Source: Halalkalicoccus tibetensis (GTDB lineage Archaea; Halobacteriota; Halobacteria; Halobacteriales; Halalkalicoccaceae). From it: a DNA stretch of 64,000 nucleotides. Shown in pieces: positions 3,394 through 47,891 of this stretch. Both the position numbers and the translations under genes were made by a program. The stretch is taken from contig NZ_JBBMXV010000007.1 of the NCBI RefSeq assembly GCF_037996645.1, positions 94,973 to 158,972 of the forward strand, in the 5' to 3' direction. The notes beneath the pieces are model-generated. The model saw only the letters and a program-made list of their open reading frames with translations, searched no databases and was not told where the DNA came from. How positions within the stretch are numbered: the first letter of the stretch is position 1; the number at the start of each line of letters is the position of its first letter.

Positions 3394-3783
3394 TTACGCC
3401 TCGTCGATCCCGCTCATCATCTGTTGATCGAACTCCTCGCCCCACTCCTCAGAGCGCTTGCGAGAGCGTTCGGCCGCCTCGTCGTCGTCTCCGAACAGAC
3501 CGACGAGGTCAAAGAGTGGACCGACGGGGCCGCCACGGGCGCGTTGCTCGTCGGAGAGCCACCAAACGACGGCACCAGCTCCGACCTTCTTTCGTTCGAC
3601 GTTGCCCTTCTCCTCGAGCGAATTGAGTTTATCGAGCGCGGATCGATTCGATATTCCGAGTACTTCACCCACCTCTTTGCCGGTGAGCGGCTCGTCACGC
3701 TCGATGAGTACCGCGATCACGTCATCAATCGTCGTCTTCTCGATATACTTCCCATCGTCTCCGCGGCTTCGACTCATGCGCAT
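3394..3783 (-). CDS. Winged-helix antitoxin-like regulator paired with VapC
   Basis: A 129-residue protein with a winged helix-turn-helix at about residues 16-75 (IDDVIAVLIERDEPLTGKEV, then GISNRSALDKLNSLEEKG) and an acidic, charged tail (GDDDEAAERSRKRSEEWGEEF) that could bind the toxin. It directly precedes vapC with 7 nt between them, the usual antitoxin-first order. Haloarchaeal VapC partners are often of this wHTH type rather than AbrB or RHH. It probably represses its own promoter, an AT-rich stretch at 3790-3860. The ATG at 3783 is used; an ATG at 3777 is also possible. Confidence 0.75.
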   Translation of the reverse strand: MRMSRSRGDDGKYIEKTTIDDVIAVLIERDEPLTGKEVGEVLGISNRSALDKLNSLEEKGNVERKKVGAGAVVWWLSDEQRARGGPVGPLFDLVGLFGDDDEAAERSRKRSEEWGEEFDQQMMSGIDEA

Positions 3784-6275: not shown

Positions 6276-6695
6276 CTACTCGTGGTGCTCGTAGCGTTCG
6301 ACGACCTCAGCGAAGGCCACCGTTTCCGCCACGCTCGTGATCTCGATCTCGACGCGTTCGTGCGGGTCGGTATCGGGAACGATGACCACGTATCCTCGCT
6401 CGACTCGTGCGATCCCGTCACCCTGATCGCCGATCGTCTCGATCTCGACGGTTCGGTGATCGCCCTCAGTAACGGGCGGATTGGGCTCAGTAGTTGCCTG
6501 AGTCGATTTTTGACTGGTAGTAGTGTCCGAGTCGGTCTGGGGCCGAGCCTGTGGGACGAGAGCGATACGATACGAACCGTCCGGCTCGAGGTCGCCGAGC
6601 TCCACCTCGCGTTCGGGAATCTCGATCGTGTAAGACCCATTTCGGCGATCGATCTCACCACTAAACAGACACAGTAGATCGTCTGAGAGTTCCAT
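6276..6695 (-). CDS. TRAM-domain protein
   Basis: A 139-residue protein. The C-terminal ~60 residues form a TRAM RNA-binding beta barrel: VEIETIGDQGDGIARVERGYVVIVPD, then ERVEIEITSVAETVAFAEVV. The N-terminal ~50 residues (MELSDDLLCLFSGEIDRRNG, with IEIPEREVELGDLEPDGSYR) are typical of haloarchaeal paralogues, in which a short basic/acidic strand precedes TRAM. A low-complexity T/Q/S linker joins the two parts. Archaeal TRAM proteins act as RNA chaperones, for example in the cold. The gene is monocistronic. Confidence 0.85.
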   Translation of the reverse strand: MELSDDLLCLFSGEIDRRNGSYTIEIPEREVELGDLEPDGSYRIALVPQARPQTDSDTTTSQKSTQATTEPNPPVTEGDHRTVEIETIGDQGDGIARVERGYVVIVPDTDPHERVEIEITSVAETVAFAEVVERYEHHE

Positions 6696-6860
6696 TTGAA
6701 ATACTCAGTTGATGAAGCCGTGGTCAATGTGCATGATAGTACTGGTAGCAGCTGATATGCCCGAGAGATCTCCTCCATCAGTTCCTCAACGAGAGTGTCA
6801 GTAGTGCTTTATGTTCACCACATATATAACGGAGGAGTTTCAACTAACAACAGATTCCAA

Positions 6861-7010
6861 ATGAAGGAGTGTAAGCGGTGTGGAAAAGCGTTCCTGACAG
6901 ATCGGGCGGCGAACGGACACCAGGCGGTCTGTCCCGAGAATCCCGACCGTGTCGTCCCTGACGGCTGGGCGCCCGAGACACATGGTCGTTGGGGAGATAC
7001 TACAGAGTGA
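6861..7010 (+). CDS. 49-residue C2H2-like zinc-finger miniprotein, copy 1
   Basis: A 49-residue protein with CKRCGKAFLTDRAANGHQAVC: two Cys (C4, C7), then His and Cys at the spacing of a single zinc finger, followed by DGWAPETHGRWG. The upstream frame is longer, but the ATG at 6861 matches the start of the second copy at 19818 and follows the same upstream bases. It ends 29 nt before the end of a convergent DUF6788 gene. The two-gene block recurs at 19.8 kb. A DNA- or protein-binding role is likely; nothing more specific is supported. Confidence 0.75.
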   Translation: MKECKRCGKAFLTDRAANGHQAVCPENPDRVVPDGWAPETHGRWGDTTE

Positions 7011-7038
7011 ACGTATGGGCTGACCAAAGGAGATAGTG

Positions 7039-7389
7039 TCAGTCAGTGTCACTGCCGGTTGCTTTTCCTAGATATTTCCGCCGAACAGTGTCTCCATCAC
7101 GATAGGCCCGATATTTATAGGGGCCATGTTCCCCGCCGCCACTCATGCACGAGCAGCTCTCATCACCACAGGTGCGATACTCGAGATAGACCGCACCACC
7201 TGATTCGTTCTCGAGAAGTTGGGTTTCATCCGGCAGTTCGTCTTCGGTGACTGGCTCTTGGCGACGTTCTTCGCGAGCCGCAAGCAGCTTATCGATATAT
7301 TCGCTGGCGTCCCGAAGCGACTCGTCATCCTGCTTAGGAAGGCCCTCCGCAAGGTAATTCGGAAGGGAGGGAGGTGCAGTCGGTGGCAT
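7039..7389 (-). CDS. DUF6788 family protein, intact copy
   Basis: A 116-residue protein. The N-terminal half is helical and charged (PKQDDESLRDASEYIDKLLA); the C-terminal half has YLEYRTCGDESCSCMSGGGE followed by HGPYKYRAYRDGDTVRRKYLG, a small Cys-containing domain typical of DUF6788. The start at 7389 lies 5 nt from a 9-bp-arm inverted repeat that covers its promoter, which suggests direct control at that site. Upstream of the promoter lies an ORB-type origin and a divergent orc1/cdc6 gene. A second copy at 20 kb is broken. The family's function is unknown; the location suggests a role tied to replication. Confidence 0.75.
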   Translation of the reverse strand: MPPTAPPSLPNYLAEGLPKQDDESLRDASEYIDKLLAAREERRQEPVTEDELPDETQLLENESGGAVYLEYRTCGDESCSCMSGGGEHGPYKYRAYRDGDTVRRKYLGKATGSDTD

Positions 7390-7394
7390 TTTCC

Positions 7395-7438
7395 TTGTGC
7401 AACGTATAGGGAGAACCGATATAGTATTTGTTGCACAA
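7395..7438. promoter_or_regulatory. Inverted repeat TTGTGCAAC-N26-GTTGCACAA, DUF6788 promoter
   Basis: Perfect 9-bp arms at 7395-7403 and 7430-7438 enclose an AT-rich spacer that can hold the TATA box of the leftward DUF6788 gene (start at 7389). Each arm is itself nearly palindromic (TTG-TG/CA-CAA). The same arms recur at 17911, 20363 and 44663 with 23-24 nt spacers. This is a probable operator for an autoregulator or a replication-linked protein. Confidence 0.75.
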
Positions 7439-7554
7439 GACGCCCGGTAGGTCATCTCTCTCAGAGGTGATTCCGTCCGCCATATGTCAGACACCGTTAT
7501 TTCCACTAATACGATGACAGGAGTAGGGACGCCCAGAACAGGCCATCACTCTCC

Positions 7555-8133
7555 CCCCACTGTTTCCAGTAAACGCGAGATCGAGTGGGGAGGCGTCTGC
7601 TCCTAGCGTGAAGTAACCCCCTAGTTCCCTATCTCTCTAGCCGACTTTTTCGACGCTACGGACCAACTAGTGACTATCCATAATAAAGATTCTCGCTAGA
7701 TAACTACCTTTCCCAGAACCGCTCCTGCTTCTTCTACTCTTTACTGGAAATAGTGGGGTGGGGGTGTTGGTCTTCTTCTCTCCATGCTTCCCCCTCGCCG
7801 TGCGCTGGTTCTTCCGTAGCGCCCAATTACTGGAAACAGTGGGGTGCTCCTTACTTATAAAAGACCCTTTACTGGAAATACTGGAACACGGTGGTTCGAT
7901 TCCTCTCCTCAATTTTCCCAGAGACACTTCCAATTACCAAGAATAATGGTGTCTGGAGTATGCGATCGATCACACTTTACTGGAAACGGTGGGGTAGCTC
8001 GTGAGGGCTAGTAGGGGGTAGTTCGCCATCGACAGACAAGGAACTAGTCTCGATTCCCTAGAGTTTACTGGAAACGGTGGGGTGGTAGTCCGGCTATTCG
8101 AAGTGGTTATACTGGAAATACTGGAAACGATGG
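7555..8133. other. Replication origin 1: array of ORB-type repeats
   Basis: At least seven copies of a repeat with core TTTACTGGAAA-(C/T)-(A/G)GTGGGG occur: one inverted (7555-7573) and direct copies at 7740, 7827, 7868, 7976, 8065 and 8109. The copies at 7868 and 8109 contain a doubled ACTGGAAATACTGGAA core. The GGAAAC...GGGG pattern is that of haloarchaeal origin recognition boxes bound by Orc1/Cdc6. The array lies directly upstream of an orc1/cdc6 gene, the normal arrangement of an archaeal origin. The stretches between repeats are AT-rich enough to serve as unwinding element. Confidence 0.85.
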
Positions 8134-8175
8134 TCGAAACTATTATCATGGTAGGTTGACTCAGTCACTCCTATC

Positions 8176-9417
8176 ATGGGCCCCCGGTTCCAGCCGGACG
8201 ATACTCTCTATAAGCGACGGAACACACTCAAGGTAGAGTACGTTCCTGACGAAATCGTCGGACGGGACAACGAGATCGAGGAGTACGAGGCTGCACTTCA
8301 GCCCGTCATCAACGGGGAGTATCCCGATAACGTCTTCATCTATGGAAAGACTGGCGTCGGGAAAACGGCAGTAACGAACTTCCTGCGCAACGAACTGCTG
8401 GAGTCGGCTGCTCATTTCGACGTGGACATCTCGTTTATAACGCTCAACTGTGACGGCCTGAGCACGAGCTATCAGGCTGCGATCAGCCTCATCAACAAGC
8501 TCCGGGAACCCGAACACTACATCGCTGAGACGGGCCATCCTCAATCCAAAGTCTATCGCCTCCTCTGGAACGAACTCAACAGCCTCTCGGGGACCGTTAT
8601 CATCGTCCTCGACGAGATCGATCACATCACGGACGACACCTTCCTCTATCAGATCACGCGCGCAGACAACAACGGGTACATCGAGAACATCCAACTGGGT
8701 CTCATCGGGATCAGCAACGACTCGACGTTCCGTGAGCAACTCGACGCGAAGGTTCAATCATCGCTCTGTGAAACCGAGATCTCGTTCCCGCCGTATGGCA
8801 CCGAAGAACTCCAAAAAGTCCTCGAACAACGAGCGGACATCGCGTTCCACCAGAACGCGCTTGAGGACGGTGTGATCTCACTGTGTGCTGCACTTGGCCG
8901 TCAAGACGGGGGCGATGCACGACGAGCGATTACACTGCTTCGGAAGGCTGGTGACCTCGCCAGAACGGAAAACGCAACGAGAGTCACGACCGATCACGTC
9001 GAGCGAGCCCAAGAAAAGCTCGAGGCCCAACAGAGCATGGACATCATGCGTGATCTCACCGAACACGAACAGCTTACCCTGTATGCTCTTACGACCCTTG
9101 CCGCCGAGGACGCGACTCCTGCCCGGTCGCGTGTCGTCTACCAGCGATACAAGAAACTCTGTACTACTCAGGACCGTAATCCCCGCACAGCCCGCCGAAT
9201 GCGGAGTTTTCTCTCCGACTTCGAAATCCTCAACCTGACACTCTCCCATATGGAACATCGAGGTCAGGACGGCGGCACGTATCGTGAACACGAAATCAAC
9301 CGGGACATCGCGACGATCATCGACGCGTTGCAGACCGTGATCACGGAGTTCGGTGCTCACCGAAGTATCACGGAGTATCTCCCGGACTCGGGCGAAGAGT
9401 TCGCCACGATAGCGTAG
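8176..9417 (+). CDS. orc1: Orc1/Cdc6 replication initiator 1
   Basis: A 413-residue AAA+ protein. Walker A is GKTGVGKT at residues 57-64, Walker B VLDEID at 144-149, and sensor 1 GISND at 178-182; GGDARRAI near residue 249 carries the sensor 2 Arg. A C-terminal winged-helix domain from about residue 305 binds origin DNA. The protein binds ORB repeats and recruits MCM. Length and motifs are complete. The gene starts 42 nt after the last ORB repeat of origin 1, so it is its probable cognate initiator. It differs strongly from the second initiator at 18.6 kb, in step with the different repeat sequences. Confidence 0.95.
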   Translation: MGPRFQPDDTLYKRRNTLKVEYVPDEIVGRDNEIEEYEAALQPVINGEYPDNVFIYGKTGVGKTAVTNFLRNELLESAAHFDVDISFITLNCDGLSTSYQAAISLINKLREPEHYIAETGHPQSKVYRLLWNELNSLSGTVIIVLDEIDHITDDTFLYQITRADNNGYIENIQLGLIGISNDSTFREQLDAKVQSSLCETEISFPPYGTEELQKVLEQRADIAFHQNALEDGVISLCAALGRQDGGDARRAITLLRKAGDLARTENATRVTTDHVERAQEKLEAQQSMDIMRDLTEHEQLTLYALTTLAAEDATPARSRVVYQRYKKLCTTQDRNPRTARRMRSFLSDFEILNLTLSHMEHRGQDGGTYREHEINRDIATIIDALQTVITEFGAHRSITEYLPDSGEEFATIA

Positions 9418-9590
9418 CTGTCCGTGCTCATCTCCTCGTCTCCTCTACTTACCTAGAAGTAGCGTCAAAGAGACGCGACAGTTTCGGTCAAGATTGTTGC
9501 CGTTATCTGCAGAACTGCAGCTAGTCTTCGAAGCATGGATCTCTGAGTGCGTATCTTCAGCGTCGTGATCCCTCCTACTGATTAGAACGT

Positions 9591-11096
9591 TTAGAACGTG
9601 ATCTGGGATTTGGTTTCGGCTTGGAGCGCCCAGATTTCCTTCATCCGGGCTCGAATACCTACGTACTGCTCGTGGAGACGATCATACGTCTCACCACGAG
9701 CAGCAGTCGGGTGATACCGATCGGCATTTGAACGGACCTGTTTGACTCCTGCTGGCGCGTTCGAGTAGCAGCCAGCACCGACCCCGGCGAGTACCGCCGC
9801 TCCAAGCGCGGTCGGCTCAGCACTGTCCGGGATGACGATTTCGACGCCCATACAGTCGGCAACGAGCTGATTCCAGAACGCAGATTGCGTTGGTCCGCCA
9901 GTGAGATAGAGCTGAGAGACCGTATTTGGGACCGCTTCGTAACAGTCCCGAAGCGCCAAGGCAAGCCCCTCGTACACTGCTCGAACGATGTGGGCAGTTG
10001 TATGCGACGGTTCCAAACCCAGTAGCTGTGCTCGTGCATTGGGATCAACGAAGGGGCCTCGTTCGCCAGTCGAGCTGAGATACGGCAGATAAACAAGCCC
10101 GTCTGCTCCGGCTGAAACCGAGCGAGCAGCGGCCTCGAGATCCGAATAGTCGGTCTTACAATTGTTTACAATCTCATCGCGCACCCACTCGATGCTCCGG
10201 GTGCCTACATTCGATCCGATTGCTTCCGTATAGAGACCGTCCCAGAGGGCAACTTGGATCGTCGTCGAATCGACACGTGGTGTCGAAGCTAGCGACTGGT
10301 TGACGACCGACGTCCCGACCGAAGACACCGAATCTCCCTCGGAGACGGCGCCACAACCGATGGCGGACGCGGCAACGTCGAACAGTCCCATCACGACCGG
10401 CGTCCCAGCGGGTAGACCAGTCTCCACTGTCGCCGATTCAGTTATTGATCCAACGACCGAGCCTGCGGTCTGTAGCTCCGGGCGCAGGTGCTTGTGCTCG
10501 GACACTCCCGTGGCCTTCCAGACGGCATCCGAATACGATTGACTGTGAATATCCAAGAGGGGCAGCGAACCGTCGCTCAAGTCCGTCGCCCGCTCTCCGG
10601 TCAGCTTGTAGGTAAGCCAGTCTTTGCAGAACAGAAGCGTCGCCGCCGTCTCAAGCTGTTGAGGGCGTTCATCGGACAGCCATGCGAGAAGCGGAAGGAC
10701 GGTGCCAGGAAAGAGCTCCGAGCCACAGATAGAAGCGATCTCTTCGAGCGTGCCGTTGGTGCGCCACTGCTCGACGTACTCGTTTGCCCGACTGTCCGAC
10801 CAAAGAATAGCGCTGCGAACGGGCTCGCCGTCCCCATCGATCAACCAACATCCATCGCCTTGGCCTGCGATACTGACGCCGAGAACAGTGGCTTCCGGTG
10901 GAAGCTGCTCAACGAGCTCCGCGAGACAGGCAGCGGTCTGTTCCCAGACGGTATTCATGTCTTGATGAGCCCACTGTGAACGTGGATGGTCCGTCGTGAG
11001 CTCTCGGGTAGCCAGTGCCTGCTCACGTCCAGTCGGCGTGATGGCGATTGCCTTGATCACTGACGTGCCGGCATCGATACCCACGAGAATGTCCAT
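9591..11096 (-). CDS. FGGY-family carbohydrate kinase
   Basis: A 501-residue two-domain kinase of the actin/hexokinase fold. The N-terminal VGIDAGTSVIKAIA is the first phosphate loop; GQGDGCWLIDGDGEPVRSAI and LWSDSRAN carry substrate-binding residues; the C-terminal YLTGGPTQSAFWNQLVADCM is the FGGY adenosine motif. The GQGDGCW variant resembles erythritol and L-xylulose/3-keto-L-gulonate kinases more than glycerol kinase, but the exact sugar cannot be named. It phosphorylates a sugar or polyol with ATP in the cytoplasm. The gene stands alone, convergent with orc1, with no transporter nearby. Confidence 0.88.
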   Translation of the reverse strand: MDILVGIDAGTSVIKAIAITPTGREQALATRELTTDHPRSQWAHQDMNTVWEQTAACLAELVEQLPPEATVLGVSIAGQGDGCWLIDGDGEPVRSAILWSDSRANEYVEQWRTNGTLEEIASICGSELFPGTVLPLLAWLSDERPQQLETAATLLFCKDWLTYKLTGERATDLSDGSLPLLDIHSQSYSDAVWKATGVSEHKHLRPELQTAGSVVGSITESATVETGLPAGTPVVMGLFDVAASAIGCGAVSEGDSVSSVGTSVVNQSLASTPRVDSTTIQVALWDGLYTEAIGSNVGTRSIEWVRDEIVNNCKTDYSDLEAAARSVSAGADGLVYLPYLSSTGERGPFVDPNARAQLLGLEPSHTTAHIVRAVYEGLALALRDCYEAVPNTVSQLYLTGGPTQSAFWNQLVADCMGVEIVIPDSAEPTALGAAVLAGVGAGCYSNAPAGVKQVRSNADRYHPTAARGETYDRLHEQYVGIRARMKEIWALQAETKSQITF

Positions 11097-11329
11097 TGCC
11101 CAGTACGCCGTTGTCAGTCGAGTTAGTGGTTATGATAGGAAGTTATCATGAGACAGAAGGCCCTATCGAAACCAACGATCGTAGTAGGGAACTTCTTGCT
11201 GAGCAAGACGTACCGATGACATAGATCGCCCTTGCAGGGCCTCTCTGTAGTGTCTAGGTGGCCTGGCCCCTAGTCACCGGCTACGTCGAGGATGCCGTCG
11301 AAATTATTGCAGGGTTCAGACGAGTGCGA

Positions 11330-12664
11330 TTAGTCCAAAACTGCAGCTAGGGTATCGAGATAACCACCTCTCCCATAGTACTTGTTTTCGTATTCAGAGG
11401 GAGTTTCTGCGGTACGACGAAGTACGTTCATGACCTGGTTTGCATTGGAACGCTGACTAATACTGGCGACAAGTGCAACGGCACCGGCAACTTGTGGTGC
11501 AGCCATCGAGGTTCCAGCTAACCACCCATACCCATACTCCGCTCCCTGATACTCCCCATCATCGCTAAATATGGGCGTAGCAGTCACGTTCAGGACATCA
11601 TCGTATTCAGACTCTCCACCCTGTCCGCCAGGCGCAGCGAGATCGATTGCACCGACTCCGTGTGTCGTATACGTTGATGGCGCGTACGGTGGTTCATCGT
11701 ACTCGCCGGTACCAGGATCGAATCCGATAGGACCGGTTGCGCTCGTCGTGATTCCACCTGCAGTTTGAGACGAGTCGGTTTCATCCCGGTTGAACTGGAG
11801 ACTCTCTCCCCAGTTCCCAGAAGCGTGCGTATGAACCGTCCCGTTTCGCCGGGCGTAGTTTCCGATACGCTGGTGAACACTGCCCCAGAATCTACCCCAC
11901 CCCTCCTCGCGCATGTTCCACGTCCAACCAAGACTGAGATTCGCGGCATCACAGCCGATCTCAGCAGCGTAAACGAGGGCAGCCAAAACTGACCCATAGT
12001 ACGTATCTCCCCAGTAATCCGGCGGAAGGTCGTTGCGATCACTACTCGCCGGATTCGCGGTAGAGACACGAAGATCCACGAGCTCCGTACCGGGCGCAGA
12101 GCCGACAACACCGGTCTCATCCTCGTCATTGGCAGCAACGATTCCTGCCACGTGCGTCCCGTGGGTCCCTGCATAGGGCTCCCCGATTCCGTAGTCGTCC
12201 TCTGCGAAACTCCTCGAGAGATCGAGATTGACCTGGCCTTCCAGATCAGGATGACCCGATGCAATCCCGCTATCGATGATCGCTACTCGCGTTCCTTCAC
12301 CGCGAGTCGTCTCGTGAGCGTCCGGAATACCTTGGTCGTGTTTGTCCCACTGATATGCAGATAGGTCCTCGCTCTCCTGGAGATCATCAGCTCTGGTTTG
12401 GCGGACTGGGCGATGATCGCCGCGGCTGTGTCGTCTATCTGGCACGAAGTCCGCCCGGGATGCTTCGAGTGAGTCCTCAGATCCCTCGACAATGAGCAGA
12501 TCCACGGGCTGCATTTCGTGGATTATTTCGACGTCTTCACGGCCCTGAAAACCTCGACTATCAACGATAAATCGCTGGATCGGACTGGCTGTAGCGATTG
12601 AGGGGCCGAGAGTAAGTGCCCCGAGTGATACGCTGCCTGTTTTGATGAATGCGCGTCGTTTCAT
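11330..12664 (-). CDS. Subtilisin-like serine protease (S8, halolysin type) with Tat signal
   Basis: A 444-residue secreted protease. The leader MKRRAFIKTGSVSLGALTLG is a twin-arginine signal. An inhibitor-like pro-region follows to about residue 120. The triad is visible: D131 in VAIIDSGI, H168 in HGTHVAGI, and S386 in GTSMAAPQ; N284 in ASGNWG is the oxyanion residue. It is likely folded in the cytoplasm and exported to act outside the cell, as in other halolysins. There is no C-terminal extension domain, so it is shorter than halolysins R4 or 172P1. It has its own AT-rich promoter at 12720-12770. Confidence 0.93.
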   Translation of the reverse strand: MKRRAFIKTGSVSLGALTLGPSIATASPIQRFIVDSRGFQGREDVEIIHEMQPVDLLIVEGSEDSLEASRADFVPDRRHSRGDHRPVRQTRADDLQESEDLSAYQWDKHDQGIPDAHETTRGEGTRVAIIDSGIASGHPDLEGQVNLDLSRSFAEDDYGIGEPYAGTHGTHVAGIVAANDEDETGVVGSAPGTELVDLRVSTANPASSDRNDLPPDYWGDTYYGSVLAALVYAAEIGCDAANLSLGWTWNMREEGWGRFWGSVHQRIGNYARRNGTVHTHASGNWGESLQFNRDETDSSQTAGGITTSATGPIGFDPGTGEYDEPPYAPSTYTTHGVGAIDLAAPGGQGGESEYDDVLNVTATPIFSDDGEYQGAEYGYGWLAGTSMAAPQVAGAVALVASISQRSNANQVMNVLRRTAETPSEYENKYYGRGGYLDTLAAVLD

Positions 12665-12997
12665 GATGTGTGAGAAGAAACGGGGCCGGCTCTGCCCGCG
12701 TTGGATTTCCTCTCAAGAAATAACATGGGCTGGTTAAATAATAATTTATTTTAACCACGATTACACTAATACGGGCACGTACTTCTTCGGCATCGATTCC
12801 AACCTATCCACCAATTCGAATCCTATTATTGGTGATGGGTTGACAGCACGTAGCCACGATAACGAAGCAGGATATACAATAGTACGGAATTCTCATAGAG
12901 CACGTTCAATCTAACAAATATCGACAGAGGGTGGCCTGAGTCGTGACCTCGACCGGAATCCAACGGGTATATACAAACCACCAGTCTGGTGTGGGGT
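12665..12997. promoter_or_regulatory. Divergent promoter region between subtilase and BASS genes
   Basis: About 330 nt between divergent genes. An AT-rich block at about 12731-12760 (TAAATAATAATTTATTTTAA) can serve as TATA element for the leftward protease. No gene or repeat was seen in the rest. Confidence 0.45.
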
Positions 12998-13984
12998 ATG
13001 TCGACAGGAGGCGGGCTCCAGCGGATCAGCCGATTCATCAGCAAATACTTCGTCGTGTGGGTTCTGGCCGCTGCCGCTCTTGCCCTCCTCACGCCCGAGA
13101 CGTTCGCCTGGATCGGCGACTATATCTCGATTCTCCTCGGGGTCGTCATGCTCGGAATGGGGCTGACGCTCACTCCGGCGGATTTTCGACGTATCATCGA
13201 ACGGCCACGGGACGTCGCGATCGGCTCCTGTGCACAGTGGGTGATCATGCCCACGCTAGCATACGGTCTCGTCGTTGGCCTCGGACTCCCGACGGAAGTC
13301 GGAATCGGCCTGATTCTGTTGGGTGCGGCCCCGGGTGGGACGGCCTCGAACGTCATGACCTATCTCGGAAAAGGGGACGTCGCCCTCTCGGTAACGATCA
13401 CGTCTGTGACGACGATCGCAGCGCCGATCGTCATGCCTGCCTGGGTCGTCCTTCTGGCCGGCGAGCAGATCCAGGTGACGTTCGCCGAGATGTTCCAGGA
13501 GATCGTCCTGATCGTACTCATTCCCGTCGTCGCGGGCGTGGTGATCCGGCAAGTCCTGGATCGAACCGCGCCCACCGCAGCGGAAGTCGGTCTCACCGTC
13601 TTTCCGGCGATCAGCGTGCTCGCGATCGTCACGATCGTCGCTGCGATCGTCGGTCTCAACGTCGAGAACATCCTCGCCGCAAGCGGCGTCGCCCTCGTGG
13701 CTGTACTGGTTCACAATGCAGTGGGACTGGGCGCGGGCTACGGAGTCGGACACACCACGAGCATGCCGGAGGATCGAGCGCGGGCGTGTGCGTTCGAAGT
13801 CGGGATGCAAAACAGCGGGCTGGCCGTTGCCATCGCTGTCGCCTTCTTCAGTCCCCTGACGGCGCTCGTCCCGGCTCTGGCAAGTGTCTGGCACAACGTG
13901 ACGGGGCCTGCGCTCGCGACGTATTTCACCCGCCAAACGGACGAACACTCCGCGTCGGCGCCGAGTATCCACGAGTCCGACTGA
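12998..13984 (+). CDS. Bile acid:sodium symporter (BASS) family transporter
   Basis: A 328-residue polytopic protein with about nine or ten hydrophobic segments. LLGAAPGGTASNVMTYLGKGD (near residue 103) and CAFEVGMQNSGLAVAIAVAF (near residue 265) are the two sodium-binding crossover motifs of BASS carriers. Such carriers import organic anions with sodium. The ATG at 12998 is preferred to the GTG 9 nt earlier. A GlcD-type 2-hydroxyacid oxidase follows 94 nt downstream on the same strand, which suggests uptake of glycolate, lactate or a related acid. Substrate assignment is inference from that neighbour. Confidence 0.9.
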   Translation: MSTGGGLQRISRFISKYFVVWVLAAAALALLTPETFAWIGDYISILLGVVMLGMGLTLTPADFRRIIERPRDVAIGSCAQWVIMPTLAYGLVVGLGLPTEVGIGLILLGAAPGGTASNVMTYLGKGDVALSVTITSVTTIAAPIVMPAWVVLLAGEQIQVTFAEMFQEIVLIVLIPVVAGVVIRQVLDRTAPTAAEVGLTVFPAISVLAIVTIVAAIVGLNVENILAASGVALVAVLVHNAVGLGAGYGVGHTTSMPEDRARACAFEVGMQNSGLAVAIAVAFFSPLTALVPALASVWHNVTGPALATYFTRQTDEHSASAPSIHESD

Positions 13985-14078
13985 CGAGGTGTCGATACCA
14001 GGATCGACACCCTCCTCCCGGATGGACGGATGCAAACGCCTATCAGCTAGTCACCCACCACCAGATACCACACAGACG

Positions 14079-15470
14079 ATGGGACACGATCACGACTACG
14101 ACTGTTCGTTCGTTACCGACGTCGTTACTGAGGGCCGCGTTAGCACCGCCGAGGACGTTCTGGACGCCCACGCGAAAGACGAGGGACCTCACGAGGCCCA
14201 CCGACCCGACGTCGTCGTCTGGCCCGACTCCACACGGGAGATCGCGGCGCTGTTGGCCGAAGCGAACGACCGTACCGTACCCGTAACGCCATGGAGCGGG
14301 GGAACCAGCATCGAAGGCAATCCGATCCCCGTCGCCGGTGGGATCGTCCTCAACACCTCCGAGTTCGACGAGATCACTGTTCGCCACGACGATCTGCAAG
14401 CCGTCGTCGGTCCGGGCGTCGTTTATGATGATCTGAACGCGGCCCTCGCGTCCCATAACCTTCGGTTCGCACCGGGAATCGCTGCAGGCGATATCGCGAC
14501 GATCGGCGGCATGATCGCGAACAACGCCAGCGGTCTCAATGCCGTCCGATACGGCGTAACCGGCGACCACGTCCTACGCTTGGAGGTCGTACTCCCTGAT
14601 GGACGGATCATCGAATGCGGTCGCGACGTCCCGAAAAGCACGGCCGGCTACAACCTCAAGGACCTCTTCGTCGGCAGTGAAGGAACGCTCGGCGTGATCA
14701 CCGAGGCGACGCTCTCTCTGGAGGGAATCGCCCAGCACAGACACGCTGCGCTCGTAACGTTTCCCTCGAGTGTGGCTGCCAGTCAGGCCGTCTCGACGAT
14801 AATGGCATCAGGTTTGACACCAGGTGCACTCGAGTTCATGGATACACAGCTCGTCGAACTGCTCAACGACTACAACGATGACGCCGACTTTCCAGCTGCA
14901 CCGCTCTTGTTGATCGAACTCCACGGCAACAGCGGCGATCTCAGCACACAGATGGATCGCGTTCGGACGATCTGTGAGGACCATGACGCCATCGAGTGGT
15001 CGGAAGCCGATACTGACGACATCGAGACGATCTGGCGTGCACGCCGAGACGCGTATCCGGCAGCCTGTGAGTACTACGCGGATCAGACCGTCGGAGTCAT
15101 CGGCGACGTCGTCGTTCCGATTTCGAGATATCCCGACATCGTGAGCCGGATCGAAACGATCAGCGACGAGCTCGAACTACTGACGCCGTGTGTCGGGCAC
15201 GCTGGCGACGGAAACATCCACTTTCTGCCGGTGGTCGACACGGACGACCCGGCGGCCATGGATCGCGTACAGGAGCTGACTGACGCGATCGTAAGCGAAG
15301 CACTCGAACTCGGCGGGACCGCTACGGGCGAACACGGGATCGGAATCGGGAAACGAAAGTTCATGCGCCAGGAACACGGCGACGCCGTCGACGTCATGAG
15401 CGGTATCAAGGACGCGATCGATCCGAGGGGAATCATGAATCCCGGCAAGACGCTCCCCAACGACGATTGA
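14079..15470 (+). CDS. FAD-linked 2-hydroxyacid oxidase/dehydrogenase (GlcD / D-lactate dehydrogenase type)
   Basis: A 463-residue flavoprotein. The PCMH-type FAD domain shows PWSGGTSIEGN (near residue 68) and GGMIANNASGLNAVRYG. The C-terminal FAD-oxidase domain has GHAGDGNIHFLPV with the active-site His and ends in TGEHGIGIGKRKFM, typical of D-lactate and glycolate dehydrogenases. It oxidises a 2-hydroxyacid to the 2-oxoacid and passes electrons to a carrier. The start at 14079 (MGHDHDYD) is chosen because the longer upstream frame has no family similarity. It is likely co-transcribed with the BASS transporter. Confidence 0.9.
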   Translation: MGHDHDYDCSFVTDVVTEGRVSTAEDVLDAHAKDEGPHEAHRPDVVVWPDSTREIAALLAEANDRTVPVTPWSGGTSIEGNPIPVAGGIVLNTSEFDEITVRHDDLQAVVGPGVVYDDLNAALASHNLRFAPGIAAGDIATIGGMIANNASGLNAVRYGVTGDHVLRLEVVLPDGRIIECGRDVPKSTAGYNLKDLFVGSEGTLGVITEATLSLEGIAQHRHAALVTFPSSVAASQAVSTIMASGLTPGALEFMDTQLVELLNDYNDDADFPAAPLLLIELHGNSGDLSTQMDRVRTICEDHDAIEWSEADTDDIETIWRARRDAYPAACEYYADQTVGVIGDVVVPISRYPDIVSRIETISDELELLTPCVGHAGDGNIHFLPVVDTDDPAAMDRVQELTDAIVSEALELGGTATGEHGIGIGKRKFMRQEHGDAVDVMSGIKDAIDPRGIMNPGKTLPNDD

Positions 15471-15761
15471 GGTCCGATCAAGCACGACAGGCTGAGCTAC
15501 CGTAGTCCCGTTCGATCAGCCTGGTATTCCAGTAGTACCGTAGGAAGTTTCTTGGTAATAGCTAGCAAGTGGCCCCTAAATGCCAGATAATACCGCGCAT
15601 ATAGGAACGCGATTCAGACACACATCATCGTACGCTAATGAGATGAACGTTTGTTATGGCCCTCTTGTTGACCTACTGTTATATAATCGACAGTACATCC
15701 GCTGAATATTAGATAGAATACTATTCACTTAGTATATGTTTTAACCATCAAAATTGTTTAC

Positions 15762-17543
15762 ATGGATTCAGGCGGTACAACACGGCGCATGTCACACAGA
15801 CGCACGTTTCTGAAACAGCTCGGACTGGCAACGGCAGCAACGACGGCAGTTGGGACAGGTGCCGGAGCGGCCACCGGTACGAGCACGACTGATGAGGGAC
15901 TCAACATCGAGGGCGGTAGCGGCTCGGAGTTCGACTACCCATGGCAGTTCATTGGACGGCGTTCGGCCGTCATGGCCCAAAACGGCATGGTCGCAACGAG
16001 CCATCCTCTTGCTGCCCAGGTCGGAATTCAGACCCTCCAAAACGGCGGTAATGCCGCTGACGCTGCCGTCTCAACGGCAGCGATGCTCAATTTCGTCGAA
16101 CCACATATGACCTCGATCGCGGGGGATATGTTCGCGCTAACCCACTTCGATGGGGAGTTCAAAGCGTTGAACGGCAGTGGTCGTGCACCTGCCGCCGCGG
16201 ATATCGATACCTACTGTGAGCGTATCGACGAAAGCGAAGACGGCGAACCAACGATCCCAGCGGAGGGGGGCCTTCCCGTTACGATTCCAGGCGCTGTCGA
16301 TGGCTTTCATCAACTCATCGACCGATATGGTACCCAGGAACTCGCCGACGTGTTCCAACCGACCATCGAGTACGCCCGTCAAGGCGTACCGGTCACTGAG
16401 TACGTTGCAGCACAGTGGGAAGAGGCCGCACCGCGGGTCGAAGGATTCGATTCGTTCGCCGAGACCTTCCTGCCTGATGGGCGACCCCCACAGCCGGAAG
16501 AGGTGTTTTCGAACCCCGCGTTTGCCGATTCGCTCGAACGGATCGCCGAAGACGGAATCGAGACGTTCTACGGCGGCGATCTCGGACAAGAAATCGTCGA
16601 GATCGTCCAAGAGCACGACGGAGTGATGGAACTTTCCGATCTGGAAAACCACGAGAGTACGTGGGGAGACCCGATTTCCACCGAGTATCGTGGTGTGGAG
16701 GTACTCGAGCATCCACCGAACACACAGGGTGTCGTTGCTTTACAGGCACTCAACCTCCTCGAGAACTTCGACGTTAGTGACGACCCGACCGACCCTGAAC
16801 GTCTCCATCGGATGATCGAGGCGGTGAAAATCGCCTTTGCTGATGCCTACGAGTTCGTCACTGATCCAGAGGCCGAACAGATCCCGATAGAGACGATGCT
16901 CTCGAAGGAGTATGCGAACGATCGCGTAAGCGAAATCGGGTCCTCGGTAGGAGAGTACGAACCACGGGCCGACAGACAGAGTGATACCGTCTATCTCACC
17001 GTCGTGGATGGAGATGGTAACGCCGTTTCGTTGATCAACAGCGGCTACTACCCGTTCGCAAGCGGGCTCGTCGTCGGTGGGTTCGCCCTGCAGAACCGCG
17101 GCTTCTCGTTTAGCCTCGATCCTGACGATGCGAACGCACTCGAACCGGGGAAACGACCCTTCCATACACTCGTTCCAGCGATGCTTGCCGAAGACGGCGA
17201 GTTCCGTGGGTCCTTCGGCGTGATGGGGGGCGACATGCAACCCCAAGGCCACGCCCAAGTCGTCATGAACATGGTCGACTCCGGCTTGAATCCACAGGCA
17301 GCGATCGATGCGCCTCGATTCCGGTTTATGGGAGACCACGAGGTGACGCTTGAAACCTCACGACTTCCCGAAGGGACGGTCGACGACTTGCGGGAACGCG
17401 GCCATGACGTGATCACCGAAGAAGAGTACTTCGTCCCTGATGCAGGCCATTACGGGGGTGCACAGCTCATCTATCGCACTGAAGATGGGAAACTGATCGG
17501 TGGCTCGGAGCCTCGGCGGGACGGTCACGCAGTCGGGTTCTGA
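15762..17543 (+). CDS. Gamma-glutamyltransferase with Tat signal
   Basis: A 593-residue Ntn-hydrolase. A twin-arginine leader (MSHRRTFLKQLGLATAATT) suggests export; ATG 15789 would start directly at it, 27 nt inside the listed start. VATSHPLAAQVGIQTLQNGG begins the large subunit. The autocatalytic cleavage site is DTVYLTVVD, with T409 aligned to the catalytic Thr of E. coli GGT. GGDMQPQGHAQVVMN is the conserved C-terminal segment. The enzyme removes gamma-glutamyl groups from glutathione-like or gamma-glutamylcysteine substrates. The gene is preceded by a strongly AT-rich promoter stretch (15650-15760) and stands alone. Confidence 0.92.
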   Translation: MDSGGTTRRMSHRRTFLKQLGLATAATTAVGTGAGAATGTSTTDEGLNIEGGSGSEFDYPWQFIGRRSAVMAQNGMVATSHPLAAQVGIQTLQNGGNAADAAVSTAAMLNFVEPHMTSIAGDMFALTHFDGEFKALNGSGRAPAAADIDTYCERIDESEDGEPTIPAEGGLPVTIPGAVDGFHQLIDRYGTQELADVFQPTIEYARQGVPVTEYVAAQWEEAAPRVEGFDSFAETFLPDGRPPQPEEVFSNPAFADSLERIAEDGIETFYGGDLGQEIVEIVQEHDGVMELSDLENHESTWGDPISTEYRGVEVLEHPPNTQGVVALQALNLLENFDVSDDPTDPERLHRMIEAVKIAFADAYEFVTDPEAEQIPIETMLSKEYANDRVSEIGSSVGEYEPRADRQSDTVYLTVVDGDGNAVSLINSGYYPFASGLVVGGFALQNRGFSFSLDPDDANALEPGKRPFHTLVPAMLAEDGEFRGSFGVMGGDMQPQGHAQVVMNMVDSGLNPQAAIDAPRFRFMGDHEVTLETSRLPEGTVDDLRERGHDVITEEEYFVPDAGHYGGAQLIYRTEDGKLIGGSEPRRDGHAVGF

Positions 17544-17910
17544 CCTACTACCGATCCGCCGGAACTCACCATACATCACTAGGCTGATCGACGGACGTGA
17601 ATCGCGTATGCTCCGCTCCGTAACCATCATCGGTGGCTGGCTGAATATCCAGCTCCACCCCGAATAGTCAACAAGTGCAAATAGTGACATAGACGATATA
17701 TGACGAACGTGATCGTTACCCGGACCCACGTTGCGTTCCTACGCAACCCGTAATAGGTCCGCGACGATCTCAATGTAGGATTCACCGCCTCAAGCTCTGA
17801 AATGTCGCTCGGTGGACCATCAGACACATTTGGGACGGCACGGGGATAAGTCCTGAAGAAGAGCATTTGAGGCGTATCTCAAAGGGGTAGACAGTAGGTG
17901 GCATACTACC
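17544..17910. other. Intergenic region left of origin 2, with a DUF6788 start remnant
   Basis: About 370 nt without an intact gene. On the minus strand, 17893-17904 reads ATG-CCA-CCT-ACT (MPPT), identical to the first codons of the intact DUF6788 gene, after which similarity ends. This places a DUF6788 start at the same position relative to the origin as in module 1. The rest shows only short frames without motifs. Confidence 0.45.
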
Positions 17911-17952
17911 TTGTGCAACAACTGGCTCTTTCCGACCAATATTGTTGCACAA
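17911..17952. promoter_or_regulatory. Inverted repeat TTGTGCAACAA-N20-TTGTTGCACAA beside origin 2
   Basis: Perfect 11-bp arms, 42 bp in total. It sits 6 nt from the DUF6788 start remnant and 37 nt before the first ORB repeat of origin 2, as its homologue at 7395 sits before origin 1. The sequence is nearly the same as at 20363. The repeat is retained here although the gene it once controlled is gone, so it may have a role of its own. Confidence 0.75.
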
Positions 17953-17989
17953 GGTTGACGAAAACAGCTCAGCTTCTCTTGTAGGGGAG

Positions 17990-18550
17990 CCCCGGATTGC
18001 CGCTGTAAGATCTCAATAAGACCCGTCCCGTTTCTGGACCAGCACCCCTCGTTGCCGCTGTAAACAGATAGGTAGTGGTCGGATACTCCCACCCCGGATT
18101 GCCGCTGTAAAACTCTCTGATGTATCCGGTGGGAGGTCAGAACAGGAAGTATAGAGAGAAGCGTTTTCTATAGAATACATCTATCTGGCGACTATTAGCA
18201 ATACATTTATTAGGTAAGGTGTCGTTCGCTACCGTACTGCACTTTTGCCATACTGAGACGGCAATCGCTTTTGCCGTCGAAGAATCGAAAAGGAGGCTCA
18301 CCTCTCCCACTAGCTGAGGGCTGTATATGGGGTCTTACCATGTCAGTCCGTCTGTTGTCCTTCTGTTCTGGTGGCGGTCCCTTCCGAATCTTTACAGCGG
18401 CAATCCGGGGTGGGTGTGTCCAGGTGTTTACAGCGGCAACGAGGGGTCCTAACCAGTGGAATTGGTATCAACCCGTTCTATATCTCTCGTGAGTAGTGTT
18501 TTTACTGTACTCTCTAATTCGTGAACTCTCTTACAGCGGCATTGTGGTGG
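17990..18550. other. Replication origin 2: inverted and direct ORB-type repeats
   Basis: Six copies of a repeat with core TTTACAGCGGCAA-(TCC or CGA)-GGGG occur. Three are inverted on the left (17990-18008, 18044-18064, 18090-18111) and three direct on the right (18391-18412, 18427-18447, 18530-18550, the last degenerate). They enclose an AT-rich core (about 18165-18225, e.g. ATACATTTATTAGG) suited to unwinding. The order of the variants is mirrored: CCGGGG and CGAGGGG types occur on both sides. This is a classic archaeal origin layout. The second orc1/cdc6 gene follows at once. Confidence 0.88.
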
Positions 18551-18587
18551 GCAAAGGTTCATAACCCATCCCTGAGAGAAACCCCCT

Positions 18588-19784
18588 ATGAGCGAATCAA
18601 CGTCATTCTTCGGTAATCCCGATCCGATTTTCGCCGACAAAGAGCTTCTCCGCGTTAGCCACCTCCCCGAAGGTGATCGAATCATCGGACGGGACGACGA
18701 ACTCCGAAGCCTCGCCAAAGCGATCAAGGACGCACAGCGAGGCGGAACACCGAACAACGTTTTGATCTACGGAAAAACTGGAACCGGCAAGAGTCTTTGT
18801 TCGAAATACATCACGCGTGATCTTGCCGACGCTGCCGCCGAAAACGGCGTGAGAATCGGTATCGCGTACGTTGATTGTTTCCAAGAGTCGACCGAAACAC
18901 AGACAGTTCGAACTATCGCTGAATCGCTCAACGACCCGGAAGAAACGGACATAACTGTCCCCCACTCCGGAGTAAGCACGTCTGACTACTACCGGCGCCT
19001 GTGGGACATACTTGATGCCCGCCTGGACGTCGGCATTATCATTCTCGACGAAATCGACAAACTTGAGGACGACAACGTTCTGATGCAGCTCTCACGTGCA
19101 GCGGAAGCAGGCAAAGTCGATGACTCTACGCTCGGTATCATCGGGATTAGCAACAAGATTCGCTACAAAGACACACTGAACGAGCGCGTGAAATCGAGCC
19201 TTTCAGAGCGTGATTTCGTTTTCCCTCCATACGATGCATCCCAACTCCAGGCGATTCTTCAGTCACGTGCGGATGCGTTTCGCGAGAACGTCCTTGAGGG
19301 GGACGTAATCCCAAAGGTGGCCGCGCTCGCTGCTCGCGAACACGGTGACGCCCGCAAGGCAATCGATATTCTTCGGTATGCAGGTGAAATTGCTGACGAA
19401 CACGGTGATGATTCTGTCCGTATCAAGTACGTCGATGAAGCGCATGACCGTGAGGAACAGGCTCGACTCTCGGAACTGATTTCGAAACAGCCGACACATT
19501 CAAAATATCTGATGCTGGCTCTTGCTCTTCGAATGCAGGAATCTTCTGAGGACGAACCACCGATCCCTACGAAGCAGATTCACTCTGCCTATCAGATCGT
19601 CTGTGAGCGCGAAGGAACTGAACCGCTGAAGATGCGTCGAGTTCGTGACCTCCTCTCCGAACTCGCATTTCTCTCGCTCATCGAGCAGGAACGCAAAGGA
19701 CGCGGGAAAGGAAAGGGCGCTCATACCGTCAATGAACTCGTTGACGATCCCGAGATCGTCGTTGAAGCGTGTCAATCCGCTTGA
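18588..19784 (+). CDS. orc1: Orc1/Cdc6 replication initiator 2
   Basis: A 398-residue AAA+ initiator. Walker A is GKTGTGKS at residues 62-69, Walker B ILDEID at 152-157, sensor 1 GISNK, sensor 2 in EHGDARKAIDIL; a C-terminal winged helix follows from about residue 295 (SKYLMLALALRMQ onward). All core motifs are intact. It begins 37 nt after the last repeat of origin 2, which it probably recognises. Similarity to initiator 1 is limited to the AAA+ core, so the two belong to different Orc1/Cdc6 lineages. A C2H2-like miniprotein gene follows 33 nt downstream and may be co-transcribed. Confidence 0.95.
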   Translation: MSESTSFFGNPDPIFADKELLRVSHLPEGDRIIGRDDELRSLAKAIKDAQRGGTPNNVLIYGKTGTGKSLCSKYITRDLADAAAENGVRIGIAYVDCFQESTETQTVRTIAESLNDPEETDITVPHSGVSTSDYYRRLWDILDARLDVGIIILDEIDKLEDDNVLMQLSRAAEAGKVDDSTLGIIGISNKIRYKDTLNERVKSSLSERDFVFPPYDASQLQAILQSRADAFRENVLEGDVIPKVAALAAREHGDARKAIDILRYAGEIADEHGDDSVRIKYVDEAHDREEQARLSELISKQPTHSKYLMLALALRMQESSEDEPPIPTKQIHSAYQIVCEREGTEPLKMRRVRDLLSELAFLSLIEQERKGRGKGKGAHTVNELVDDPEIVVEACQSA

Positions 19785-19817
19785 AATGGATGGGCTTCAA
19801 CTATCAGCGGATTCCAT

Positions 19818-19967
19818 ATGACGGAGTGTGAACGGTGTGGGAAAGCATTCCTGACAGATCGGGCGGCGAACGGACACCAGGCGGTCTGTCCCATGAATTC
19901 GGATCGTGTCATTCCTGACGACTGGGCGCCCGAAGCGCACGGTCGCTGGGGGAACAATACGAAGTAG
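19818..19967 (+). CDS. 49-residue C2H2-like zinc-finger miniprotein, copy 2
   Basis: Closely similar to the miniprotein at 6861, with the same length and the finger CERCGKAFLTDRAANGHQAV, then DDWAPEAHGRWG. At DNA level long runs are identical between the copies. It starts 33 nt after orc1/cdc6-2 on the same strand and is convergent with the broken DUF6788 copy. Substitutions are mostly conservative, so it looks functional. Confidence 0.75.
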   Translation: MTECERCGKAFLTDRAANGHQAVCPMNSDRVIPDDWAPEAHGRWGNNTK

Positions 19968-19987
19968 ATTCCGTAGGCAATGTCAAC

Positions 19988-20356
19988 TCACCAATTGGTG
20001 ATAGCCGAGTCAGTCCGTATCACTGCCGGATGCTTTGCCGAGATCCTCTCGCCGCACGGTGTCTCCGTCGCGATAGGCCCGATATTTGTAGGGCCATGTT
20101 TCTCGCCGCTCATACACGAGCAGCTCTCATCACCGCACGTTCGATATTCGAGATACACAGCACCATCTGATTCGTTCTCAAGCACCTAGGCATCCCCGGG
20201 GAGCTCGTCTTCGGTGACTGGCTCACTTTGACGCTGTTCACGAGTGGTAAGCAACTCGTCCACGTACTCTTGGACCTTCCGCAGGGTTTCGTCGTCCTGT
20301 TTGGGAAGCCCGTCGGCAAGGTAGTTCGGAAGCGATGACGGTGCAGTCGGGGACAT
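19988..20356 (-). pseudogene. DUF6788 family gene, copy 2, with stop and frameshift
   Basis: The start (MSPTAPSSLPNYLADGLPKQ) matches the intact copy at 7039-7389. The codon that is CAG (Gln) in the intact copy is TAG here, at about 20186-20188, after ELPGDA. The frame then continues as LENESDGAVYLEYRTCGDES, but after MSGEKHG the reading frame shifts and the HGPYKYRAYRDGD segment is lost. The gene is therefore inactive, while its upstream inverted repeat is fully preserved. Confidence 0.85.
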
Positions 20357-20362
20357 TCTACC

Positions 20363-20404
20363 TTGTGCAACAATGAGCGCCCTTTTATTAATATTGTTGC
20401 ACAA
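20363..20404. promoter_or_regulatory. Inverted repeat TTGTGCAACAA-N20-TTGTTGCACAA upstream of DUF6788 copy 2
   Basis: Perfect 11-bp arms, total 42 bp. The spacer holds TTTTATTAATA, which on the minus strand supplies a TATA box about 25-35 nt before the ATG at 20356, so the arms flank the promoter core. The divergent SMC-related gene starts 187 nt to the right and might also be affected. Confidence 0.75.
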
Positions 20405-20590: not shown

Positions 20591-22507
20591 ATGCCTTCGC
20601 TTCAAAATATGACCGCTGACGTCGAGGTCGAGAATATCGGTGGTATCGACACTGCTTCAGTCGAGTTCACTCCTGGTGTCACGATCCTCGCGGGACGAAA
20701 CGCAACTAACCGAACGTCGTTTCTGCGATCGCTGATGGCGGCCCTCGGTAGCGACCGGGCATCGCTCAAAGGGGACGCCGACCACGGCACGGTTTCGCTT
20801 GCGCTCGATGAGGAGACCTATACTCGCGAGCTGACGCGTACGAGCGGTGGCGTTACGTTCGCCGGCGATCCCTACCTCGACGATCCACAACTGGCCGATC
20901 TGTTTGCCTTCCTGCTTGAGTCCAATCCGGCCCGCCGCGCCGTCGTCCACAACGACGATCTCCGCGAGCTCATTCTCCGGCCAGTCGACATTGATGCGAT
21001 CGAAGCCCGAATCAGCCAATTCCAGGCCGAAAAGCGCAGCATCGATAACCAACTCTCGGAACTGTCCGAAGCCGAGCGTGAACACGGTTCGCTGGAAGAA
21101 GAGCACGTACGCGTCACAACGCAGCTCGAGGACGCCGAAACGGATCTCGAAGACGCACGTGAAACGCTACGGACTGCCCAGCAATCCGATTCGGAGAGTA
21201 CGGATTCGGATCAACTCGATGAACTGCAGGAAACACAGTCCCAGCTCGAGGACGTCACCTATAACCTCGAAACTGAACGGGAAAGCGTCTCTTCGCTCGA
21301 GGACGAACACACCGATCTCGAAACGGAGCTTGAGGAGCTCCCGACGATTGATGAGGACGAGCTCGACGATCTGGCCAGTGAGATCGAACGGATTCGGGGT
21401 CGGAAACGCGAACTCGATGAGATCATCTCCCAGCTCCAAACAGTCATCCAGTTCAACGAACAGATCACAGACGACGGAGTCACTGATCTTCTCGGCAACG
21501 AAGAGGCAACCCAGCCGGAAGCGGATGGTGGGTCAGTAACTGATCAGTTGGTCGCAGACCAATCGGACGAGGTCACCTGCTGGACCTGCGGCTCAGAGGT
21601 CGACACCGATCAGATCGAGTTGACGGTTTCGCGTCTTCAGGATTTGCGCCAAGAGAAAGTCGAACGGCGCAACGAACTCAACCGAGAGCTTGAGGAGCTC
21701 AAAGCTCAGCGCAAAGACCACGCCACAACGAGAGACAAGCGTGCCGAACTCGAACGGACACTCGAGACGACCGAATCGGAACTCGCCGATCGAACCGATC
21801 GGATCGACGAGCTCGAATCACAACGAGAGGAGCTGATCGAGGAGATCGGTGATTTAGAATCAGCCGTCGAAGCCGACGAGAACGACGAGGAGCTCCTGGC
21901 AGCCCAAAAGGAAGTTACCCAACTCGAGCTCAAGCGGGATCGACTCGAACGCCAGCGCGATGCACTTGAGGATGATATCGCCGAGCTTGAATCCCAACTC
22001 GAGAAGCGCGGGCAGCTCGAGGCTCGCCGCGAGGAGATCAACGCGGAACTCGAGGAGCTTCGAACGCGCATCGAGCGTGTCGAGCGCGAGGCGATCGAGG
22101 CGTTCAACGAGCATATGGAGACCGTCGTTGAACTCCTCGATTACGGGAATCTCGCGCGAATTTGGCTCGAATACCGTCATCCAGAAGGAACTGATGATGC
22201 GAGCTTCGAGTTGCACGTGACACGCCAAACGGATGATGGGACGACCTACGAGGACTCCGTCACGCATCTAAGCGAGAGCGAGCGTGAGGTGACTGGACTG
22301 GTGCTCGCACTGGCGGGCTATCTCGTCCACGACGTCCACGAGGAGATGCCGTTCATCCTGCTGGATTCTTTGGAGGCGATCGACTCTGAGCGTATTGCAC
22401 AGTTAGTCGAGTATCTCGAAGAGTACGCCTCCTATATCGTGGTTGCACTACTGCCTGAGGACGCGAATGCGCTCGATGACGACTACCAACGGGTTGCAGA
22501 GATCTGA
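20591..22507 (+). CDS. Archaea-specific SMC-related ATPase (ASRP)
   Basis: A 638-residue Rad50/SMC-like protein. The N-terminal ATPase half has TILAGRNATNRTSFLRSLMA (residues 31-50), where the P-loop reads GRNATNRTS: the usual GxxGxGKS has lost its second Gly and its Lys is replaced by Arg. Long coiled coils (about 140-290 and 345-500) flank a zinc-hook CWTCG (C330, C333). The C-terminal half has HLSESEREVTGLVLALAGYL, the ABC signature region, and FILLDSLEAID, the Walker B and D-loop. The variant P-loop is typical of this haloarchaeal family as I recall it. A role in chromosome or plasmid structure is likely but unproven. Confidence 0.85.
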   Translation: MPSLQNMTADVEVENIGGIDTASVEFTPGVTILAGRNATNRTSFLRSLMAALGSDRASLKGDADHGTVSLALDEETYTRELTRTSGGVTFAGDPYLDDPQLADLFAFLLESNPARRAVVHNDDLRELILRPVDIDAIEARISQFQAEKRSIDNQLSELSEAEREHGSLEEEHVRVTTQLEDAETDLEDARETLRTAQQSDSESTDSDQLDELQETQSQLEDVTYNLETERESVSSLEDEHTDLETELEELPTIDEDELDDLASEIERIRGRKRELDEIISQLQTVIQFNEQITDDGVTDLLGNEEATQPEADGGSVTDQLVADQSDEVTCWTCGSEVDTDQIELTVSRLQDLRQEKVERRNELNRELEELKAQRKDHATTRDKRAELERTLETTESELADRTDRIDELESQREELIEEIGDLESAVEADENDEELLAAQKEVTQLELKRDRLERQRDALEDDIAELESQLEKRGQLEARREEINAELEELRTRIERVEREAIEAFNEHMETVVELLDYGNLARIWLEYRHPEGTDDASFELHVTRQTDDGTTYEDSVTHLSESEREVTGLVLALAGYLVHDVHEEMPFILLDSLEAIDSERIAQLVEYLEEYASYIVVALLPEDANALDDDYQRVAEI

Positions 22508-47576: not shown

Positions 47577-47891
47577 GGAGTTGGATGAGTAGAGGGCGTG
47601 GGGGGTAGTAAATCTACTTGTGACTTGTGACTTAATCAAAAGTGAATTGCCAGGCCGCTGAATCGGCTATATTTCGCAGATATAACGCTGCTAGCCCGAG
47701 AATGGCATTCTATAAACTGTATAGTACTACATAGAAACCTGAACTAAAGTTGCGAATCTTCTCAATACGTGCATGGGGATCTCCTGTTCTAGAGAGGATT
47801 AGTGGTGGTAGCTCCGGAAATCTTTTTAGATCACACATCGACCACAGTATCTGAAGGAAACAAAACTACAGCACAGTAAACAATGTTGATG
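47577..47891. other. Intergenic region between integrase and the second TRAP-linked usp
   Basis: About 315 nt. It contains the promoter of the leftward integrase near 47620-47650 and nothing else that could be recognised. Base composition falls from here on toward the AT-richer second catabolic island. Confidence 0.4.

Follow-up and report, generated by a model that had tools for sequence, protein, structure and literature searches.

A Halalkalicoccus tibetensis plasmid that very probably carries two orc1/cdc6-origin modules of different families with separate predicted specificities

Passages of PMC4595724 describe pHM500 of Haloferax mediterranei as carrying two origins, oriP1-cdc6L and oriP2-cdc6M, both of which are ARS-positive with only one firing in the wild type: cdc6M, 98% identical to H. 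volcanii orc3, belongs to the active origin of the plasmid, and the cdc6L origin is dormant, ARS-positive and required once oriP2-cdc6M has been deleted. The H. hispanica minichromosome, according to parts of PMC3936714 and PMC3528665, has oriC6-cdc6I and oriC7-cdc6J, which are both ARS-active and either of which suffices, and each origin tested in H. hispanica needs its own cdc6 (PMC3936714, in the part cited). A link between Orc family and ORB type has already been published for haloarchaea in PMC3528665, the cited section of which also sets out the idea of a 'pool of origins'; a related model is found in a section of PMC4441112.

The window analysed here, a stretch of 64,000 nucleotides from Halalkalicoccus tibetensis, is part of contig C7 (163,577 bp), which is likely a closed circle; its ends overlap by 77 bp, and a third copy of the 77-bp sequence lies at 3466. 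The features around the two origins are as follows (positions are those of the window unless a contig is named).

7039-7392, minus strand: intact DUF6788 gene (Pfam PF20586), directly before origin 1 and within repeat copy Ya (6828-7403)
7393-7440, no strand: paired element CCTTGTGCAACA..TGTTGCACAAGG (2 mismatches), where the DUF6788 gene begins
7491-8133, no strand: origin 1 (type A), ORB array with AT peak at 7662-7711, spacing kept in orthologous loci
8176-9417, plus strand: orc1/cdc6 gene A (P0001, 413 aa; Pfam Cdc6_lid, Cdc6_C, AAA), directly after origin 1
17909-17954, no strand: the same paired element, perfect, just before origin 2 and next to the opening codons of a third remnant of DUF6788
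17990-18549, no strand: origin 2 (type B), ORB array with AT peak at about 18163-18213
18588-19784, plus strand: orc1/cdc6 gene B (P0002, 398 aa; Pfam Cdc6_lid, Cdc6_C, AAA), directly after origin 2
19785-20371, minus strand: repeat copy Yb, its DUF6788 frame broken, beginning right after the orc B stop codon
20361-20406, no strand: the same paired element, perfect, after orc B and Yb
20591-22507, plus strand: SMC-related archaeal protein (SMC_N below cutoff), adjoining orc B here and origin 1 in the plasmid of Halalkalicoccus sp. FCH27
23134-23970, plus strand: ParA-type partition ATPase (domain search)

An earlier note on this DNA had claimed two origins with different ORBs within 11 kb, each directly before its own, clearly different orc1/cdc6 gene, and both points were borne out: the two origins lie 10.6 kb apart from core to core, have distinct ORB arrays and directly precede genes whose products are about 33% identical. 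Both frames are intact, with AAA+, lid and winged-helix domains present (Pfam), and both products are, in the terms of Wu et al. 2012 (PMC3528665), intact Orc1/Cdc6 proteins of more than 300 aa with AAA+ and winged helix. Both origins likewise have the inverted ORBs with a G-string in the adjoining intergenic region that Wu et al. 2012 looked for, the GGGG end occurring in all perfect copies.

The type A ORB, the 18-mer TTACTGGAAANNGTGGGG, occurs in five perfect copies in origin 1, at 7555-7572 on the minus strand and at 7741-7758, 7827-7844, 7977-7994 and 8065-8082 on the plus strand, together with degenerate copies at 7869-7886 (3 mismatches) and, weaker, at 7491-7509 (minus) and 8101-8133. 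That these repeats run mostly in one direction, as had been noted, holds for the four perfect copies on the plus strand but conceals that the inner pair (7555 minus, 7741 plus) is inverted and flanks the 50-bp AT peak at 7662. Origin 2 has five perfect copies of the type B ORB, TTACAGCGGCAANNNGGGG, and one with 2 mismatches; its description as three inverted and three direct repeats around an AT-rich core is right as to the ORBs, of which three lie on the minus strand (17990-18008, 18045-18063, 18092-18110) and three on the plus strand (18392-18410, 18428-18446, 18531-18549), but the AT richness is modest. As to the AT-rich unwinding region between inverted ORBs that Wu et al. 2012 also looked for, the best 50-bp window reaches 66% AT in origin 1 and 72% in origin 2, and the whole stretch between the inner ORBs 50% and 52%, respectively. 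Origin 1 and origin 2 are built to one common plan, with inner ORBs inverted around an AT peak.

In the 1500 bp upstream of each orc gene, the largest repeat family had 8 members at origin 1 and 6 at origin 2, against a maximum of 2 in six dinucleotide shuffles of either region. At up to 2 mismatches, motif A has six sites in the 3.6-Mb assembly, five in origin 1 and a 2-mismatch site at C7:153489, which is no more than the reversed-pattern control yields (1); a search of the whole 3.6-Mb genome found no site with fewer than 2 mismatches outside origin 1. Motif B has six sites at the same threshold, all in origin 2 (reversed-pattern control, 3). The whole genome (15 contigs, 3.6 Mb) has about 13 Orc1/Cdc6-like genes, with two clear ones each also on C5 and C6. 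On another contig of the same genome, four orc-like genes lie within about 70 kb (G000:C3 585741-657271), and a search for upstream repeats found no ORB-like G-string repeats before these four.

The earlier note had offered two explanations, the first being that two independent replicons were fused here. In its fullest form, recombination between DUF6788 copies would have joined two whole replicons into a two-origin cointegrate, and the layout lends this some colour: Ya and Yb form a direct repeat of about 590 bp (76.7% identical) that brackets the two-origin segment, and the neighbours of the repeat are found joined to DUF6788 on separate plasmids. The FCH27 plasmid has the order SMC, DUF6788, origin 1, orc A; G002:C3 has orc B, then a homolog of 6276-6761, then DUF6788; and G006:C78 has DUF6788 and SMC joined. 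Genes for an FGGY kinase and a subtilase, homologous to those at 9603-12378, adjoin orc B in G003:C13. Against this, the SMC gene lies on opposite sides of DUF6788 in the FCH27 plasmid and in the window, where one copy of the DUF6788 repeat precedes origin 1 and the other lies between orc B and SMC, an order that a single crossover cannot yield; the FGGY gene is placed elsewhere in G006:C78; and only 7.5-15.5 kb of the 163.6 kb of C7 aligns to any one of four related plasmids, in short, scattered matches, so that no long block from either candidate parent replicon appears in these alignments. A simple whole-replicon fusion was therefore not adopted and the claim was not borne out, C7 being a mosaic plasmid; we regard such a fusion as unlikely. 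Since the DNA flanking the two origins matches several different plasmids, acquisition of modules would appear to explain the mosaic at least as well as a single fusion, and we read the history of C7 as one in which modules were probably reassorted many times over, in agreement with the cited sections of PMC3528665 and PMC4441112.

Other parts of the plasmids also drew attention. A tyrosine recombinase gene at 46377-47639 on the minus strand (Phage_integrase and SAM-like domain) has copies 80-85% identical on all four related plasmids, and few other genes are common to all five. From 37000 to 60000 of the window, G+C drops from about 55% to mostly 40-50%, GC skew is positive and a TRAP transporter (DctP, DctM) is encoded; this region looks like foreign DNA. 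The record of the FCH27 plasmid (NZ_CP144463.1; loci L140/L136) has the same proteins annotated at both ends over about 21 kb, which suggests an untrimmed circular overlap.

The family-specific paired element is a more unusual thing than the two origins themselves. It is about 45 bp long and consists of 12-bp inverted arms, CCTTGTGCAACA and TGTTGCACAAGG, around a spacer of mostly 18-25 nt that is varied in sequence and fairly constant in length. Allowing up to 3 mismatches in all, 80 pairs were found in five plasmids and none with six shuffled-arm controls. Of 391 Halobacteria genomes searched, 7 have exact pairs, at 2-37 per genome, and these 7 all belong to the host's family (10 genomes in the comparison set); the other 384 have none; in G001, 21 of 22 elements lie off the largest-coordinate contig, C1. 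The elements often adjoin DUF6788 genes or sit between short cassettes, and alignments end within 15 bp of 31 of the 80, against 9.2 expected for random non-ORF places. As a link to module borders this excess is only a lead, because the elements and the genes next to them are both conserved, which would give a like excess. It is improbable, in our judgement, that the element is a recombination site at module borders by which plasmids of the Halalkalicoccus family shuffle origins as cassettes and which brought both modules together. A role as the operator of a regulator suits those DUF6788 copies whose start lies a few bases beyond the element, but it does not suit the two copies that stand just after SprT-like genes in FCH27. 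The element may be an operator, a partition site or a recombination site; an integron attC site was considered as well. By title, a text search of the literature gave no related paper on the arms among the matches listed, and DUF6788 occurred in none.

That one of the origins is a decaying remnant, unable to fire, would have a parallel in oriC4 and oriC5, the ARS-inactive origin-like loci of H. hispanica (PMC3528665, in the section cited), and some origin 1 sites of the orthologs are missing or weak in the window, where the neighbouring DUF6788 copy Yb is also broken. The orc genes themselves tell against such decay. Orc A is 98.5% identical in amino acids to its ortholog on the FCH27 plasmid, with dN/dS for gene A of 0.008 in that comparison (dS 0.76) and of 0.029 and 0.033 with two orthologs that are less closely related; for gene B the ratio is 0.019-0.023 (three orthologs). 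Judged from these sequences, this shows both genes to have been under strong purifying selection over most of the period since they parted from these orthologs. With both genes intact, dN/dS at or below 0.033 and five perfect ORBs at each origin, we think a remnant quite unlikely. The selection would speak for past maintenance, apart from any present-day firing of both origins.

We searched 391 Halobacteria genomes with Orc A and Orc B and scanned the 1500 bp before each gene found for ORBs, allowing up to 3 mismatches. Family A has close members in 21 genomes and family B in 24; both families occur in four (G000, the genome studied here, G217, G332 and G380), and in G000 and G217 they share one contig. 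Type A sites lie at all 21 A loci (4-10 per locus) and type B sites at none of these, and type B sites lie at all 24 B loci (1-10 per locus), one of which has a single additional A-like site. ORB type thus matches Orc family in 45 of 45 loci, which share ancestry, so that each genome is not an independent case; three of these loci (L060, L092, L093), offset through a contig edge or a frameshift, are still consistent with the rule, and ORB positions upstream are largely kept within each family. Each family also occurs alone: Orc B is 95% identical in amino acids to an ortholog on G002:C3 and 92% to one on G003:C13, genomes that have family B with no close A, and three plasmids, 101-142 kb in size, have family A as their sole orc place (H2, H5 and H11, among the matches listed). 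This partition agrees with the published family-ORB link and with the dependence on own cdc6 in the cited parts of PMC3528665 and PMC3936714. An alignment of 41 of the 45 proteins shows fixed residue differences between the families in 105 of 387 columns, including 25 in the winged-helix region. Cross-talk, with one Orc serving both arrays or both Orcs acting jointly at one origin, could be read from the common frame TTAC..GG.AA...GGGG of the two ORBs and from the alignment of both Orcs to the archaeal Orc1/Cdc6 structures 2qby and 2v1u, but elsewhere each family carries its own ORB type in the absence of the other and the winged-helix residues differ between families, and we consider it highly improbable.

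The second explanation of the earlier note, one replicon with two non-cross-reacting origins, fared better than the first and appears well supported: because ORB types sort by family and both orc genes are under purifying selection, two origins with separate specificities are indicated. We hold it very probable that two complete orc1/cdc6-origin modules, differing in family and in predicted specificity, reside on one large plasmid. Each Orc would use its winged helix and AAA+ domain to bind the ORBs of its own array, open its own AT-rich core and load MCM there, with little or no recognition of ORB B by Orc A or of ORB A by Orc B, and small origin modules acquired onto a mosaic plasmid may have brought the two together. 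Going by the recorded cases, one origin is probably the main one and the other a dormant backup. The cumulative GC skew of C7 has no turning point at either origin, its minimum lying at C7:125500, near 30.5 kb of the window.

The arrangement would offer a small natural setting in which to test how origins with separate initiators coexist on a replicon when they are about 10 kb apart, a distance at which forks from one origin would presumably soon cross the other. The choice between main and spare could be tested, one family probably having a published dormant member; otherwise, the locus is a well-documented addition to the known pattern of multi-origin haloarchaeal plasmids.

That dormant member is on pHM500. 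Plasmid pHME505 of H. mediterranei, which its name and size suggest is pHM500 sequenced anew, has two orc genes: one at 101916, 91% identical to gene A with type A ORBs upstream, and one at 334763, 48% identical to A, with no A or B ORBs in the upstream region searched. Other Haloferax plasmids carry orcs that match the one at 334763 at 98% identity, and only one Haloferax stands among the 16 plasmid records with a family A Orc of at least 80% identity (among the matches listed). As the 98% identity fits cdc6M, the A ortholog is left as cdc6L, and gene A most likely belongs with oriP1-cdc6L. Under the grouping rule of PMC3528665, by which Orcs are at least 80% identical and the ORB type is the same, origin 1 (91%, type A) goes with the A-type pHM500 origin. 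Since its probable pHM500 ortholog is the dormant one, origin 1 may be the backup; and a single replication peak would leave two functional origins possible, both pHM500 origins being ARS-positive with one firing in the wild type. Like C7, pHM500 thus combines orc-origin modules of two families, one with an Orc close to Orc A, type A ORBs and similar spacing, but its modules are about 230 kb apart and its second Orc is outside family B.

The H. hispanica pair oriC6/oriC7 is alike, by its description in the cited passages, in having two ARS-active origins on one secondary replicon that depend on their own cdc6. On Natrinema versiforme pNVE414, a segment of 10.7 kb (336411-347140) holds three orc genes, and an ORB array of its own belongs to each, the three distinct repeat families having 6, 6 and 8 copies and the third module the type B repeat ACAGCGGCAACGAGGGG; this plasmid differs in having three modules in mixed orientation, and its Orcs reach no more than 49% (A-like) and 61% (B-like) identity. 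Families A and B occur together on Haloarcula sinaiiensis pHsi540, but about 230 kb apart, and on one contig of G217 (C12), but 29 kb apart and with no DNA in common with the window outside the origin modules; a reading of this contig as a circular 41.7-kb plasmid with the same 10-kb arrangement was rejected, its ends being an inverted repeat and not an overlap. A plasmid of Haloarcula sp. CBA1115 has two orcs 14 kb apart, and of the 22 plasmid records whose A or B Orc is at least 80% identical (16 A, 7 B, one with both; among the matches listed), 19 have two or more orc places. At 10.6 kb the two origins are close, yet not unique in this, and to the multi-origin plasmids with differing orc/ORB families already known in haloarchaea this plasmid adds one more.
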